From Clostridia bacterium (GTDB taxonomy: Bacteria > Bacillota > Clostridia > Oscillospirales > Acutalibacteraceae), in the NCBI GenBank assembly GCA_017430535.1, contig JAFRMR010000013.1, forward strand, positions 248,001-312,000: a stretch of 64,000 nt of DNA, given 5' to 3'. The notes below the pieces were generated by a model, which saw nothing but the letters and a program-made list of their open reading frames with translations, made no database searches and was not told the DNA's origin. The stretch's first letter is position 1, and every line of letters begins with the position of its first letter. Below are positions 50,299 to 55,663 of the stretch, one piece after another. The position numbers and the translations under genes are program-made.

Positions 50299-51114
50299 AT
50301 GAACACTCAACTTATTATCACTGCCGTTGTAATCTTAGCGGTTATAGGCGCAATTGCCGCCCTTGTGCTGGCAATAGCCTCAAAGATTTTTGCGGTACCC
50401 GTTGATGAAAAAGCCGAAAAAATAAGAGAATGCCTTCCCGGCGCCAACTGCGGCGCCTGCGGTTATTCCGGCTGTGACGGTTATGCTTCCGCACTTTCAA
50501 AGGGAGAAACGGATAATACCGCCCTTTGCAACCCCGGCGGCAATGAAGCCGCCAAGGCAATCAGCGAAATCCTCGGGGTTGAGGCCGGCGAGGTCAAACC
50601 CATGGCGGCGGTAGTGCTGTGCAGAGGTTTTAAATCCAACGCAGTTGAAAAGCTTATTTATGACGGCTATATGAGCTGCCGTATGGCTGCTCAGGTTTTC
50701 GGCGGACCTAAGGAGTGTATTTACGGCTGCCTTGGTTACGGCGACTGCCTCAATGCCTGCGAATACGGCGCAATTTCAATCTGCAACGGTGTTGCCCGCA
50801 TAAATCCCGCGGCCTGTAAGGCCTGTAAAATGTGCGTAAAAACCTGCCCCAAAAATCTTATTGAGATGATGCCTCTTGAAGAGGTTAAGGCGGCGGTTAT
50901 ATGCAAAAACCACGATAAAGGCGCCACCACCCGCAAAGAATGCACCGCCGGCTGTATCGGCTGCATGAAGTGCGTAAAGGCCTGCCCGGCAGAAGCAATC
51001 ACTATTGACCGCTTCTGCGCCAAAGTGGATTATGATAAGTGCGCCGGCTGCGGAGAGTGTCACAGCGTATGCCCCGTAGGTGCCATTGACCTTGTAGATA
51101 TCCGCCGTATGTAA
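50299..51114 (+). CDS. rnfB: Rnf complex subunit B (ferredoxin-interacting)
   Basis: 271 residues. N-terminal membrane helix, then CLPGANCGACGYSGCDGYA and CNPGG forming the first [4Fe-4S] site, followed by several clusters (CKACKMCVKTCPKNLI, CIGCMKCVKACPAEAI, CAGCGECHSVCPVGAI). It takes electrons from ferredoxin, such as that reduced by IorAB. Last gene of the operon. Confidence 0.97.
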   Translation: MNTQLIITAVVILAVIGAIAALVLAIASKIFAVPVDEKAEKIRECLPGANCGACGYSGCDGYASALSKGETDNTALCNPGGNEAAKAISEILGVEAGEVKPMAAVVLCRGFKSNAVEKLIYDGYMSCRMAAQVFGGPKECIYGCLGYGDCLNACEYGAISICNGVARINPAACKACKMCVKTCPKNLIEMMPLEEVKAAVICKNHDKGATTRKECTAGCIGCMKCVKACPAEAITIDRFCAKVDYDKCAGCGECHSVCPVGAIDLVDIRRM

Positions 51115-51192: not shown

Positions 51193-51356
51193 AGTGGCTG
51201 TTTTAAATGATGGAAGGTTAATCGCAGTTAAGTTTTTCATTTTAAAATCATTACAGCATTTCTTTCTGTCTGTTATTGTTTTTTGTGCTTTGCAGCCCAT
51301 AAAGCTGCGAATTTTCGGCATTGAATATCGGATGATATAGTTGAAACAATTTAAGC

Positions 51357-51385
51357 TTGATATTTTGAACTACTCGTGATATAAT
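51357..51385 (+). promoter_or_regulatory. Strong extended promoter of the structured RNA
   Basis: -35 TTGATA (51357-51362), 17-bp spacer, extended -10 TGATATAAT with TATAAT at 51380-51385. Transcription would start at about 51391, exactly where the outer helix begins. Confidence 0.75.
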
Positions 51386-51390
51386 GTGGG

Positions 51391-51559
51391 TGCCACACAA
51401 ACGAATAAAAGCAAAACCACCTGGGTGTGTATTTTTATCTCAGTAAAAATGCATACTCTGTCTTGGCATACCTAAGTTGGTTTTGCGATCGTTGTGTGGC
51501 GCAACCGGAGTTATGCGTTTTTCGTGCGCAGTCTTCGGGCTGCGCACTTTTTGTTTTTT
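51391..51559 (+). ncRNA. Structured non-coding RNA or leader, family not identified
   Basis: About 165 nt with nested long-range pairings. Outer helix GCCACACAA (51392-51400) with 51492-51500, extended by CGA (51402-51404) with TCG (51489-51491). Next GCAAAACCA (51411-51419) with 51478-51486. Innermost 13-bp helix 51425-51437 with 51444-51456, two U-G pairs, loop TCTCAG. A 21-nt single strand (51457-51477) lies on one side. A terminator ends it (GTGCGCAGTC, UUCG tetraloop, then TTTTTGTTTTTT). The ribosome binding site of the next gene follows directly, so it may be a free RNA or a cis-acting attenuator. Not T-box, tmRNA, SRP RNA, GEMM or a 6S form I can match. Confidence 0.65.
51524..51559 (+). 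terminator. UUCG-loop terminator of the structured RNA
   Basis: 10-bp stem GTGCGCAGTC / GGCTGCGCAC with a C(UUCG)G tetraloop (one U-G pair) and TTTTTGTTTTTT. It precedes GGGAGGGG, the site of the following gene. Confidence 0.85.
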
Positions 51560-51572
51560 GGGAGGGGTGCTG

Positions 51573-52658
51573 ATGGCATACTATTCATTTAAGAGCACCG
51601 GGCAAAGCGGTTTGTGTCAACGGTGTAAAAAAGAGGCTGAAGACCTTATTGAATTCGAGATAACAAACGGGGGCACAGTAAAGCATTTCCGTCTCTGCCG
51701 GGATTGCGGCAAGGCTTTCGCTTCGGTTTTAAGGAATAAAGGAGCAGAATATAAGCCGGCCGAAAAATCACCGGATAATCCCGACGAACAAAACCAAGAA
51801 ATCCCGTATGAAGAGCAAAGCACGGTCAGCACCGGCGGTGTTTCCGTTTTTTCCGCTTTAACGCAGAAAAAAGTCGCTTTAATTATTAGCCTGATTGCCG
51901 TCATATTGGTTGTATCGATTGTTGTTCCGGCTGCGGTAAAAAATCAAAAAAAGAGGGCTGAAACCTACGGTGAAAGCAATTACCAAAATGAGGAAATATA
52001 TGACGGCGGCTCCGATAATGAATACGAACAGGAAACCGAAACGGAAACAACCGTTGCCGGTGTTGACATAGATTTTCAATCTTATACAGTGCAAATTGAA
52101 AACAGCGCAGGGTACAAGTTTGAAATAACGCTGAAAATGAGCCCGTGGATTCTTTCTGATAATGAAGAAGTTATCAATTCGGCCTGGGCGGAGGTTGGCT
52201 CGGGAAAAACCCTGCCGGGCTTCAACGATTGGAAAATATACGGCGATTCTCCGAATCACTGGGATTGCAATAAAATATTTTATTCCGTAGGTCAGATAAG
52301 CGTTAAAAACATTACTCCCGGGTGGGATTTTTCAGAATCAAATCAGGGGGAGCCGGATATTTATATCAACAACGCTTCCGGCGATAATTTTCTTTTGGGC
52401 AAAGCATATTACAGCGATGAAACTGTAAGCTTTAATGTTAAAGCCGATCACAGCAATGCGGTAATCAGAATATGCCCTCTGATGAAAAAGAATACGTGGG
52501 GGCCTTTAACAATAATACTGGCTGTTCCGGATTTGATTTCGCCTAAATACCCCGACGGCAAGTGGGGGCAAAAATTAGGCGAAGGAGGGGTTTTGATTTC
52601 AGCCGCAACTTATGGGGGCGAAAGAATAACAATCCCTCTGTACAAACCTGCTCAGTGA
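51573..52658 (+). CDS. Membrane protein with N-terminal zinc ribbon, function unknown
   Basis: ATG 51573 behind GGGAGGGG; in-frame starts further up lie within the RNA. 361 residues: a cytoplasmic C-x2-C...C-x2-C zinc ribbon (CQRCKKEAE, then CRDCGKAF), an acidic/Gln linker, one membrane helix (about 99-123), an acidic stretch, and a C-terminal ~200-residue beta-rich extracellular domain (VQIENSAGYKFEITLKMSPW). The ribbon resembles those of UvrB-C-like or YgiT-type modules; no named family for the rest. Its position behind the structured RNA suggests it is under that element's control. Confidence 0.7.
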   Translation: MAYYSFKSTGQSGLCQRCKKEAEDLIEFEITNGGTVKHFRLCRDCGKAFASVLRNKGAEYKPAEKSPDNPDEQNQEIPYEEQSTVSTGGVSVFSALTQKKVALIISLIAVILVVSIVVPAAVKNQKKRAETYGESNYQNEEIYDGGSDNEYEQETETETTVAGVDIDFQSYTVQIENSAGYKFEITLKMSPWILSDNEEVINSAWAEVGSGKTLPGFNDWKIYGDSPNHWDCNKIFYSVGQISVKNITPGWDFSESNQGEPDIYINNASGDNFLLGKAYYSDETVSFNVKADHSNAVIRICPLMKKNTWGPLTIILAVPDLISPKYPDGKWGQKLGEGGVLISAATYGGERITIPLYKPAQ

Positions 52659-52801: not shown

Positions 52802-53938
52802 ATGAAGAAAACACTATCGGTTCTGCTCTGCTTAATCCTTGCTCTCGGAACAGTGTTGACCGGAACGGCAAAAATTGACGGCGTTTTTGGATCGCTTCTT
52901 ATGAAAGCGGCGGCAGAAACAAGCGGAAAGTGCGGCGAAAACCTGACCTGGAGTCTGTCTGACAGCAGCGTACTGACAATCAGCGGCAAAGGCCAAATGA
53001 CCGATTTTTCGGAGGATTTGCCGCCGTGGGATTCATACTCCGGGTCTGTAAAACAGGTAATCATAGAAAACGGAGTAACAAGTGTAGGCGCCAATGCGTT
53101 TTTTGCCTATGCAAATCTTGAATCTGTCGCTCTGCCCGATACTCTTGTCTCTGTCGGCAGCTTCGCTTTCTGCGGCTGTTCGCTTAAAAGCGTTGAACTG
53201 CCGGGGAGCGTTACCGGATTGGGCGAAGGCGTATTTCAGGGCTGTGGCAAACTGCAAAATGTAAAACTTTCAAATGGTTTAACAAGTATTAACGGTTTTT
53301 CATTTTCAGGCTGCCCCAATCTTAAAGAAATAATTATACCGGACAATGTAAAAACAATATGCCGGGAGGCTTTTGCCGAATGCTCCGGGCTGAAAAGCCT
53401 TACATTGTCAAAAAACATAAGTGAAATACAAACGGGCGCATTTTACGGCTGTAATTCGCTTAAGGATGTTTATTATGACAATACAAGCAAAGACCGGCAG
53501 AATATAACAATCTGCGAGCATAACGAAAAACTGGAAAATGCCGTTTGGCATTATAAAAACCCGAATATCAGAATAAACGTTGCCGGGCCCCGTTCCGTTA
53601 ATGAAAGAACAAATGTTTTTATCGTCGCTACCGCGGAAAACGTGCCTAAGGGTTCGATGATTTATATGGAAATATACCAAAACGGCTCTATGGTTGATAA
53701 ATGGTTTACCGAATCAACCGATGAAATAAATGTTTCCGTATTTGATGTGCGATCCGATATCGATTATACAGTCGGGGTTTGTGATAAGGAAAAGACAAAT
53801 CTGACCGATGAAAACGGAAATGCAATACGGGTAAACGGCGGGAAAATAACCGTTAAATCCGTTGGCTTTTTTCAAAAAATCATTCTCTTCTTTAAAGCCC
53901 TGTTTAATAATCTGCCCGGGGTTACGGTAAAGCCCTGA
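52802..53938 (+). CDS. BspA-like leucine-rich-repeat exported protein
   Basis: 378 residues behind GGAGG. Signal peptide (about 1-24), a short CGENLTWSLSDSSVLTISGKG domain typical of BspA leaders, then about six LRR_5 repeats (SVGANAFFAYANLESVALP and relatives) to about residue 220, an Ig-like region, and a C-terminal aromatic/basic amphipathic tail FFQKIILFFKALFNNLPG. Surface-associated adhesin-type protein; the tail may anchor it to the membrane. Confidence 0.88.
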   Translation: MKKTLSVLLCLILALGTVLTGTAKIDGVFGSLLMKAAAETSGKCGENLTWSLSDSSVLTISGKGQMTDFSEDLPPWDSYSGSVKQVIIENGVTSVGANAFFAYANLESVALPDTLVSVGSFAFCGCSLKSVELPGSVTGLGEGVFQGCGKLQNVKLSNGLTSINGFSFSGCPNLKEIIIPDNVKTICREAFAECSGLKSLTLSKNISEIQTGAFYGCNSLKDVYYDNTSKDRQNITICEHNEKLENAVWHYKNPNIRINVAGPRSVNERTNVFIVATAENVPKGSMIYMEIYQNGSMVDKWFTESTDEINVSVFDVRSDIDYTVGVCDKEKTNLTDENGNAIRVNGGKITVKSVGFFQKIILFFKALFNNLPGVTVKP

Positions 53939-54013
53939 AACAGTGTATAAGAGCGTAAAAAAATAACAGTCAGAATTATGGTTGCATAAATAAACTTAGA
54001 AAGGATTTGACCT

Positions 54014-55663
54014 ATGAAAAAAGTACTGTCCGTAATACTTGCGGTTATTATTGCCGTGATGGTCGCCCCGTTTGCCTTTGCGGCAGGAACAATTGACGAG
54101 ACTGAAAGCAATGATACATTTACAGCCGCAAATATGATCCCCGCCGGTGGAGAAATCAGAGGTAATCTTAGCTCTCAAAATGATATTGATTACTTTAATG
54201 TTACACCTACAAAAAACGGAAAACTGGCTTTCACTTTTAAGCATGATTTTTACGACTCATCAAACGGATGGGATATTTCGATTTTCAGAAAGAATACCAA
54301 TGGTACCTACAATTCGCTGTTTTCATTTAGAGCAAATAGAAACTCCTCTGAATCGCTGACAACTATTCCCATCAGTGTTATAGCGGATACAACCTATGTT
54401 GTAAAAATTGCATGCCCATACTCAAGCAGCAATTATTATACATCGAAACTCTATACAGTTTCGTACAGTTTTACAGAAACAGAATACTATGAGCGTGAAT
54501 ATAATAACACATTTACCAATGCTACATTTCTTCCCGAATCTAAAGATATTGAAGGAAATTTGGATACTGTAAATGACGAAGATTACTACTACTGTACCCC
54601 CAATAAAAACGGAAAACTTCAATTTGTTTTCAAGCATTCTTTTGTTGATAATGATACAAGAGGTTGGGACATCGCTGTCTATATGAAAAACAAGGGCGGA
54701 GATTATTCAGTAGCGCTTACAGATACCATAAGACTGAACAGCGGTGAAACTTGGATCACTTTGGCAATAGGGGCCAAGGCAAACACAACTTACTGCTTTA
54801 AAATTGCTTGCCCATACACATCTTCAAATTATCTGACAAATAATCAGTATTCAGTTTCATATTTGTTTGACGCAACAGAATATTATGAGCGTGAATTCAA
54901 CGATTCATATGCCACGGCGAATACTTTGCCTTCAGGTATTGCAGTAAGTGGAGTTATGATCGGATTAGATAACGACTTCTTTTCTTTTGTATCAGCCAAA
55001 ACAGGAAAGCTGTCTATAGATTTTATTCATCCATATTATGATGATGATGTTAGGGGCTGGGATGTTTACCTATACGCTAAAAATGGTGACGGCACATATT
55101 CGCAGCTCAGCAAAACAACTGTGACATTAAATAAACCGGAAACCGTTTCTATTCCGTTTGATTCTGTTGCCGGTAATACATATTGTGTCAAAATCACAGT
55201 GCCATGGAATTCTTACAATTACAGAACCACAGCAACTTACTCTGTAAAATGTGACTACGGCGGCAGCTCCGCTGCAAGCTACTCTCTCAGCTACAATGCC
55301 AACGGCGGAAGCGGTGCTCCCTCGGCGCAAAAAGGCACCAGTGTAAAGATATCCGGCACAGCGCCCACCAGAGACGGTTACACCTTCCTCGGATGGTCGC
55401 CGGATAAAACAGACACAGCCGCGACCTATCAGCCTGGCGACACAATAATCCTCAGTTCCGATACCATCCTTTACGCAGTATGGGAGCTCGGCTACTCAAA
55501 TCCGGACGATCCGTCGGATCCCGAAACCCCGGACAACCAGGGAGGCAACAATTCCGACAGCCTCAGCCGCGGAGAAAGAATAAAATCATTTTTCCTGAAA
55601 TTCCTGAGTATCTTTACAATTTTTATCCGTATTATCAGGTATTTACTCAGTGCATTTGTGTGA
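54014..55663 (+). CDS. Exported protein with three PPC-like repeats and an InlB B-repeat
   Basis: 549 residues behind AGAAAGGA. Signal peptide (1 to about 24), then three similar ~130-residue units beginning E-(S/Y/F)-N-(D/N)-(T/S) (ETESNDTFTAANMIP; EREYNNTFTNATFLP; EREFNDSYATANTLP), each with a DxDYF/DNDFF and GW-D core, like bacterial pre-peptidase C-terminal beta-sandwich domains. After about residue 412 comes an InlB/Flg_new-type repeat (YNANGGSGAPSAQKG ... DGYTFLGWSPD ... YAVWE), a Pro/Asp-rich linker and a hydrophobic, basic C-terminal segment. Probably a cell-surface glycan- or host-binding protein. Confidence 0.85.
   Translation: MKKVLSVILAVIIAVMVAPFAFAAGTIDETESNDTFTAANMIPAGGEIRGNLSSQNDIDYFNVTPTKNGKLAFTFKHDFYDSSNGWDISIFRKNTNGTYNSLFSFRANRNSSESLTTIPISVIADTTYVVKIACPYSSSNYYTSKLYTVSYSFTETEYYEREYNNTFTNATFLPESKDIEGNLDTVNDEDYYYCTPNKNGKLQFVFKHSFVDNDTRGWDIAVYMKNKGGDYSVALTDTIRLNSGETWITLAIGAKANTTYCFKIACPYTSSNYLTNNQYSVSYLFDATEYYEREFNDSYATANTLPSGIAVSGVMIGLDNDFFSFVSAKTGKLSIDFIHPYYDDDVRGWDVYLYAKNGDGTYSQLSKTTVTLNKPETVSIPFDSVAGNTYCVKITVPWNSYNYRTTATYSVKCDYGGSSAASYSLSYNANGGSGAPSAQKGTSVKISGTAPTRDGYTFLGWSPDKTDTAATYQPGDTIILSSDTILYAVWELGYSNPDDPSDPETPDNQGGNNSDSLSRGERIKSFFLKFLSIFTIFIRIIRYLLSAFV

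Follow-up and report, generated by a model that had tools for sequence, protein, structure and literature searches.

Competing pairings in a leader RNA upstream of exported-protein genes: a candidate class of transcription attenuators in Clostridia

Between rnfB (which ends at 51114) and a gene whose ATG lies at 51573, the window (the whole stretch of 64,000 nucleotides of Clostridia DNA analysed here) carries a strongly promoted and highly structured RNA. The first-pass annotation had placed it in no known family and had left it as either a stand-alone RNA or an attenuating leader of the next gene.

Boundaries and fold of the leader RNA

Of 6 promoter-like sites in 2.3 kb, the one in front of the RNA (Table 1) is the best. 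So many sites are no more than chance would give (4.0 +/- 2.3 in shuffles), and the support for the promoter therefore rests on the conservation of its extended -10: one is found directly upstream of 101 of the 108 distinct family members in our main alignment, and at 13 of 2160 positions drawn at random from those loci. Both this conservation and the 11 of 12 consensus matches agree with the extended-consensus promoter originally proposed. Since the -10 ends at 51385, transcription is expected to start near 51391, and the leader would then be the 5' part of an mRNA beginning there. The covariance-model match in the window (51392-51552, 132 bits) bears out the boundaries first drawn for the RNA, and the UUCG-loop terminator with its T-run was recovered as a hairpin of 10 pairs (51524-51547) followed by TTTTT, leaving 20 nt from the end of the leader to the start codon. 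A promoter, a leader and an intrinsic terminator just before a start codon, the arrangement expected of an attenuator, are thus all found here.

The minimum-energy fold of the RNA (-70.4 kcal/mol) is far below that of 200 shuffles (-43.0 +/- 3.8; z = -7.2; 0/200 as low), and the reverse strand likewise folds well (z = -4.4); together with the promoter and the terminator, this fold confirms the strongly promoted, structured RNA first described. Of the three long helices described at first, P1 and P2 (9 pairs) are as stated, while P3 was understated and reaches 16 pairs in the structure of lowest energy. The "21-nt unpaired side" has a pairing role as well, since within it lies GGCAUACC, conserved as a second partner that the P3 5' strand could take. 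The first-pass annotation had noted neither the putative antiterminator nor the long-range pairing, and it had missed the number of copies and the abundance of exported-protein targets described below.

Table 1. Features of the leader RNA and the genes that follow it (window positions)
Feature	Position	Strand	Basis or remark
Promoter: -35 TTGATA, 17-nt spacer, TG, -10 TATAAT	51357..51385	+	11/12 consensus matches; extended -10 family-wide
Whole leader RNA	51391..51552	+	start from promoter and P1 base (putative); end at T-run
P1 5' strand (GCCACACAAACG)	51392..51403	+	P1 98.9% of cells paired; 10/11 pairs changed on both sides
P2 5' strand, sequence variable	51411..51419	+	cis duplex energy vs permuted
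Segment A, P3 5' strand; partner B or B'	51423..51437	+	covariation
Segment B, P3 3' strand (UAAAAAUGCAUACUCU); partner A or C	51444..51459	+	covariation
Segment B' (GGCAUACC), alternative partner of A	51465..51472	+	88.4% of cells paired
P2 3' strand	51478..51486	+	fold and P2 cis duplex
P1 3' strand	51490..51500	+	P1 covariation
Conserved unpaired linker GCAACC	51501..51506	+	column conservation C 0.92, A 0.97, A 0.91
Segment C, antiterminator 5' arm (GGAGUUAUGCGUUUUU); partner B or D	51507..51522	+	covariation
Segment D, terminator 5' arm; with the next bases, antiterminator 3' arm	51524..51533	+	terminator scan and covariation
Segment E, terminator 3' arm, then TTTTT at 51548-51552	51538..51547	+	terminator 99.2% paired; 8/10 pairs changed on both sides
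Shine-Dalgarno-like GGGAGGGG of next gene	51560..51567	+	sequence
Putative regulated gene	51573..52658	+	361 aa; two N-terminal CxxC motifs by eye (zinc-ribbon-like), one hydrophobic stretch
Possible second operon gene	52802..53938	+	signal peptide-like start, BspA-type LRR_5
Possible third operon gene	54014..55663	+	signal peptide-like start, Flg_new repeat domain

A family of related leaders and its conserved pairings

The RNA matched no known family, in keeping with its original description as unassigned: Rfam 15 gave no match in the window at the gathering score, and none of all 4227 models matched positions 51330-51600 at E up to 10, including the 6S RNA and raiA models that had been singled out for this check as well as those of T-box and GEMM. 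At 18 loci with other family members, the Rfam search returned tRNAs only. We found no description of the leader in the titles and abstract starts listed by searches of the open-licence PubMed Central literature, although the 3161 candidates of PMC8040213 may include it without a name.

At the DNA level, 34 of 99 genomes had matches (the window's own included). A covariance model detected the family in 26 of 45 genomes within the genus, 103 of 295 within the order (63 of 149 genera) and 98 of 391 within the class (57 of 223 genera), these three genome sets overlapping one another. In the phylum set of 299 genomes, the window's own genome alone had a match, and among the genomes listed there nine others of the same class had none. 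The covariance-model runs were filtered more strictly, with 7-10 candidates scored per genome in the larger sets; the copy numbers from these sets are therefore minimum values, and weak members have in part gone undetected. Deeper scoring of eight genomes picked for their high counts gave 29, 28, 26, 17, 12, 12, 11 and 8 matches (E up to 0.001); the 26 of genome G681 may include degenerate or false matches, as several are weak and have no recognisable -10 and one is an opposite-strand echo. The window's own genome has two matches, the other of which (L090:1001-1880) lies upstream of a LytTR response regulator gene.

An exact terminator-region motif was found in 22 named contigs. Every one of them carries a label of MAG or uncultured Clostridia (Clostridiales, Clostridiaceae, Oscillospiraceae), and the record titles that give an animal name goat, yak, reindeer and rabbit ("Lapin"). 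Two phage records match the family pattern, and one of them contains a full member (138 bits): MT835845.1 (L278:2077-2230), a human-faecal record labelled "Bacteriophage sp., unverified", in which the member precedes a lipoprotein-like gene. A phage origin was rejected, since three exact patterns had no match in IMG/VR and the surroundings in MT835845 look bacterial and chromosomal (the lipoprotein-like gene and a reading frame that we take to be YicC-like).

The covariance model was built from one RNA each of 30 matching genomes. Our main alignment holds 115 hits (108 distinct) from 100 of 217 loci, 16 of its 108 rows being among the 30 behind the model and the pairing idea; a second alignment draws its 68 distinct rows from six genomes that had no part in the model, with 10 rows shared with the main alignment and two opposite-strand matches remaining in its B:C and C:D counts. 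The compensatory changes that the first-pass annotation had looked to homologues for are present in the helices. In P1, 98.9% of cells are paired and 10 of 11 pairs have changed on both sides; the corresponding figures for the terminator are 99.2% and 8 of 10, and upper P3 is 95.9% paired. P2 is free in sequence, yet its strands are complementary in cis (mean -12.1 vs -4.3 kcal/mol permuted; 0/100 as low).

Three further pairings are not part of the covariance model. The P3 3' strand and the antiterminator 5' arm (B:C) are paired in 94.5% of cells, with changes on both sides in 9 of 15 pairs and 78 double-changed cells vs 22.3 in shuffles (0/500), although two inner pairs are often broken (32/100 and 24/108 cells); slid by 1-3 columns, 33-67% of cells pair. 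In the second alignment, the same pairing reaches 89.2%, with 48 double-changed cells vs 14.8. A window-specific A in B (GCAUACUCU vs the common GCAUGCUCU) is matched by a U in C (GGAGUUAUGC vs GGAGCUAUGC), and this position forms a standard pair in 84 of the 108 RNAs and does not in 24. The second partner of the P3 5' strand (A:B') is paired in 88.4% of cells with 78 double-changed cells vs 22.0 shuffled, its count of changing pairs not being above shuffles (139/500 reach it). For comparison, full-length A:B is 86.5% paired, with 78 double-changed cells vs 24.8, its outermost pair being present in only 31 of 107.

The covariation of the antiterminator (C:D) is the weakest of the pairings. It is paired in 91.9% of cells with 28 double-changed cells vs 14.5 shuffled, but double-changed pairs (5 vs 5.2 shuffled) and pair types show no excess; in the second alignment, the figures are 83.9% and 38 double-changed cells vs 23.4 (36 at a +2 slide). 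Slid by -2 or +2 columns, the main alignment yields 39 or 36 double-changed cells vs 28 in the true register, with pairing down to 61-64% and a far lower covariation score. For B:C, A:B' and C:D alike, the true register is far ahead in both pairing and covariation score.

The B:C pairing also prefers its own molecule on average. Over 95 RNAs in 11 genomes, its mean energy in cis is -14.4 kcal/mol vs -11.0 between copies of the same genome (0/500 permutations as low); in one of the 11 genomes (G103), the preference is absent by rank, as only a fraction of 0.46 of the trans partners pair less well than the cis one.

Genes downstream of the leaders

The 236 hit records correspond to 232 distinct RNAs, and weak model matches on the strand opposite a true hit (21/127, 5/27 and 2/69) were dropped from the gene counts. 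Some ORF lies within 400 nt of 225 hits. Among the proteins that these encode, we kept the 170 that have a Shine-Dalgarno match, begin no more than 180 nt behind the RNA, reach 60 aa or more and are distinct in their first 80 residues, each scanned over at most 450 residues. In this filtered set, the start codon lies a median of 22 nt after the RNA, and at 15-30 nt in 110 of 170; among all 225 hits, a Shine-Dalgarno start falls at 15-30 nt in 114, the remainder including far tandem copies, contig ends and doubtful ORF picks.

Exported-type starts, as called by a simple hydrophobicity rule rather than SignalP, are carried by 118 of the 170 downstream proteins vs 20 of 91 upstream neighbours (Fisher p about 2e-13), and by 17 of 53 ORFs in the window. 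LRR_5 domains of the BspA type are found in 28/102 and 23/68 downstream proteins vs at most 1/91 upstream neighbours (a ceiling taken from the best 25 of 139 families by count). Other downstream families include Cu_amine_oxidN1 (9/68), MazE/AbrB-like regulators (7/68), CHAP, ricin-type lectin, zinc-ribbon and HTH_3 (3/102 each) and M23 (2/102), and no common pathway that would name a ligand unites them. The recurring AbrB/MazE-type genes hint at a transcription-factor layer in the regulon.

In high-copy genomes, small AbrB/MazE-type genes were seen by eye right after the RNA at eight loci (L262, L220, L268, L274, L227, L228, L231 and L234). Four copies (L159:1684-1908, L178:1268-1480, L163:1209-1454 and L162:1997-2144) are followed by small cysteine-rich proteins that share the pattern PGN..KDC.GNG...ECCCDEC.Y..CC, read by eye; these are possibly a peptide precursor or a metal-binding protein.

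In the window itself, the 361-aa product of the first gene, by its motifs a membrane protein of zinc-ribbon type, had no match in Pfam or NCBIfam. Simple scans listed neither a terminator nor a promoter between genes 1 and 2, nor a terminator between genes 2 and 3, so that control by the leader may extend to three genes, those at 52802-55663 included.

The proposed switch and its rivals

Whatever its trigger, the leader probably belongs to a hitherto undescribed class of clostridial leaders that attenuate transcription in cis. The mechanism, transcription attenuation, is a known one; the RNA class appears to be new. In our model, six segments (A, B, B', C, D and E) would compete for partners. 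In the first state, A:B (P3) would leave C free, and the C:D antiterminator would block the terminator, so that the gene is transcribed; in the second, A would pair with B' and B with C, freeing D for E, and the resulting terminator would stop transcription. With B enclosed by the P1-P2 fold and C beyond it, the B:C pairing would be a pseudoknot. The sensor that tips the balance would be the P1-P2-P3 domain, in which AAUA, UUU and GCAA are conserved and unpaired, and we lean towards ligand binding stabilising the B:C pseudoknot and hence causing termination.

The energies are in keeping with this model. Averaged over the 108 RNAs, they are -14.1 (A:B), -6.1 (A:B'), -15.1 (B:C), -10.8 (C:D) and -15.3 (D:E) kcal/mol, the near equality of A:B and B:C being what a switch needs. 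B:C is stronger than C:D in 101 of the 108, so that the default could be "off." In the window, the values are -15.8, -9.9, -14.4, -8.3 and -18.0 kcal/mol in the same order; with so imperfect an antiterminator beside so strong a terminator (-8.3 vs -18.0), read-through may be low, although C:D can form before E has been transcribed and the weaker antiterminator may therefore win kinetically. The switching, its ligand dependence, its direction and the co-transcription of the second and third genes are inferred.

What the alignments show is a conserved aptamer-like domain coupled by pairing to an expression platform, as in a riboswitch. A small molecule or an ion is the trigger that we consider most likely, with about an even chance of being the right one. 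The transcription-terminating riboswitches, of which c-di-GMP-I (RF01051) is an example, are alike in their leader position, in an aptamer-like fold with conserved unpaired bases, in the competition of terminator and antiterminator predicted here and in their tandem copies. They differ in that the leader has no Rfam match, extends a pseudoknot into the antiterminator arm and is carried by genomes in which GGDEF was not found (4 of 18 carriers). The targets of c-di-GMP-I riboswitches are export-rich, like those of the leader, and exported and surface proteins recall c-di-GMP regulons in general. A c-di-GMP sensor is very unlikely even so. A GGDEF match is present in 14 of the 18 carriers tested and a c-di-GMP-I riboswitch in 7 of 18, but G619 (94% complete) has 29 RNA matches and no GGDEF match, G007 (100%), G100 (99%) and G197 (83%) have no GGDEF match either, and the c-di-GMP families of Rfam do not match the leader; the carriers without GGDEF thus weaken c-di-GMP as a candidate and make it improbable as the general signal.

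An RNA-binding protein might instead stabilise one of the two states, as LicT, PyrR, TRAP and ANTAR proteins do on their own leaders; we regard this as possible, if doubtful. The predicted overlap of the antiterminator with the terminator 5' arm resembles protein-dependent antitermination, the paired sequence of P1 is unusually conserved (columns 4-9 and 209-214) and could be read by a protein, and small AbrB/MazE-type regulator genes recur downstream (the 7/68 above); on the other hand, no Pfam family occurs in more than 3 of the 91 upstream neighbours, and Rfam shows no match to a protein-bound leader. The proposed antiterminator vs terminator decision is that of the T-box leaders of Firmicutes, but the leader has no T-box match, and no tRNA-linked genes appear among the downstream families listed (the best 25 of 62 in one protein set and all 25 in the other). 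The chaining of alternative pairings between successive segments is that of the trp-type relay attenuators, so that a ribosome translating a leader peptide could in principle drive the same competing hairpins, and an AUG does lie within AAAAAUGCA in 96 of the 236 hit records. None of these 96 has any of the tested Shine-Dalgarno motifs upstream, however, the ORF lengths from this AUG are scattered (quartiles 10, 26.5 and 45 codons), and the leader differs further in having a structured sensor-like domain; with no sign of a conserved peptide at this AUG, the sole start codon tested, the leader-peptide candidate was rejected and is barely credible.

Two other explanations would do without attenuation as the function. 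The terminated product of ~160 nt could be a stand-alone or trans-acting sRNA that pairs with copies of itself or with mRNAs, which would suit the strong promoter and terminator, the abundance of copies whose B and C could pair across molecules (-11.0 kcal/mol on average in trans) and the 111 of 225 hits with an ORF for which the start codon picked either lacks a Shine-Dalgarno match or lies outside 15-30 nt. We think it quite unlikely, as it leaves the predicted conserved antiterminator without a role, as cis pairing is on average favoured over trans, and as the filtered genes begin so close behind the RNA (110 of 170 at 15-30 nt, median 22). Start-codon spacing, the conserved antiterminator predicted to overlap the terminator 5' arm and the average cis preference of the relay pairing all make an attenuating leader the better supported of the two options originally left for this locus. 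A mobile, MITE-like repeat that happens to carry a promoter and a terminator is extremely unlikely: it would explain the many copies per genome and their head-to-tail arrangement (some 46-51 bp apart), but the copies are highly diverged with compensatory helix changes, and the spacing to the start codon is narrow in 110 of the 170 filtered cases. Leaders with premature terminators are known to form families that can be found by comparison, some of them spread in many copies (Naville and Gautheret 2010, PMC2965389); the mobile attenuators in the part of that paper at hand are tied to transposon genes, whereas the targets of the leader are often genes for exported proteins.

Taken to its full extent, the riboswitch reading, on which our confidence is evenly divided, would make the leader a new class (seen in Clostridia only so far) through which one signal controls exported and surface proteins and small regulators genome-wide, by way of a pseudoknot that sequesters the antiterminator. 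If so, carriers without GGDEF proteins would have a control of the cell surface that is independent of c-di-GMP, with BspA-type LRR proteins, peptidases and lectins as its surface targets. Orphan riboswitches have earlier led to metabolites or messengers that were unknown at the time. Here, an apparently undescribed RNA family, strongly covarying and with coherent targets, reaches a dozen or more matches in several genomes; its sequence, two proposed states and named helices offer a handle on a signal that may control protein export in gut Clostridia, of which many are uncultured, at the level of the exported proteins.

Copies of the leader lie no more than 400 bp apart at 16 loci, and in 13 of these 16 every copy has an extended -10 of its own, so that the units need not share one transcript. 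Complete units in series before one gene are likewise found in tandem riboswitches (PMC9481103); the separate extended -10 of the copies is where the leader differs. At five of the tandem loci, the copies follow one another head-to-tail with gaps of 46-51 bp, just room for one promoter, and every copy there has its extended -10, suggesting serial cassettes of promoter plus attenuator. These loci are L129:1001-1558 (three copies), L223:247-649, L221:263-633, L218:2801-3165 and L257:3001-3375.
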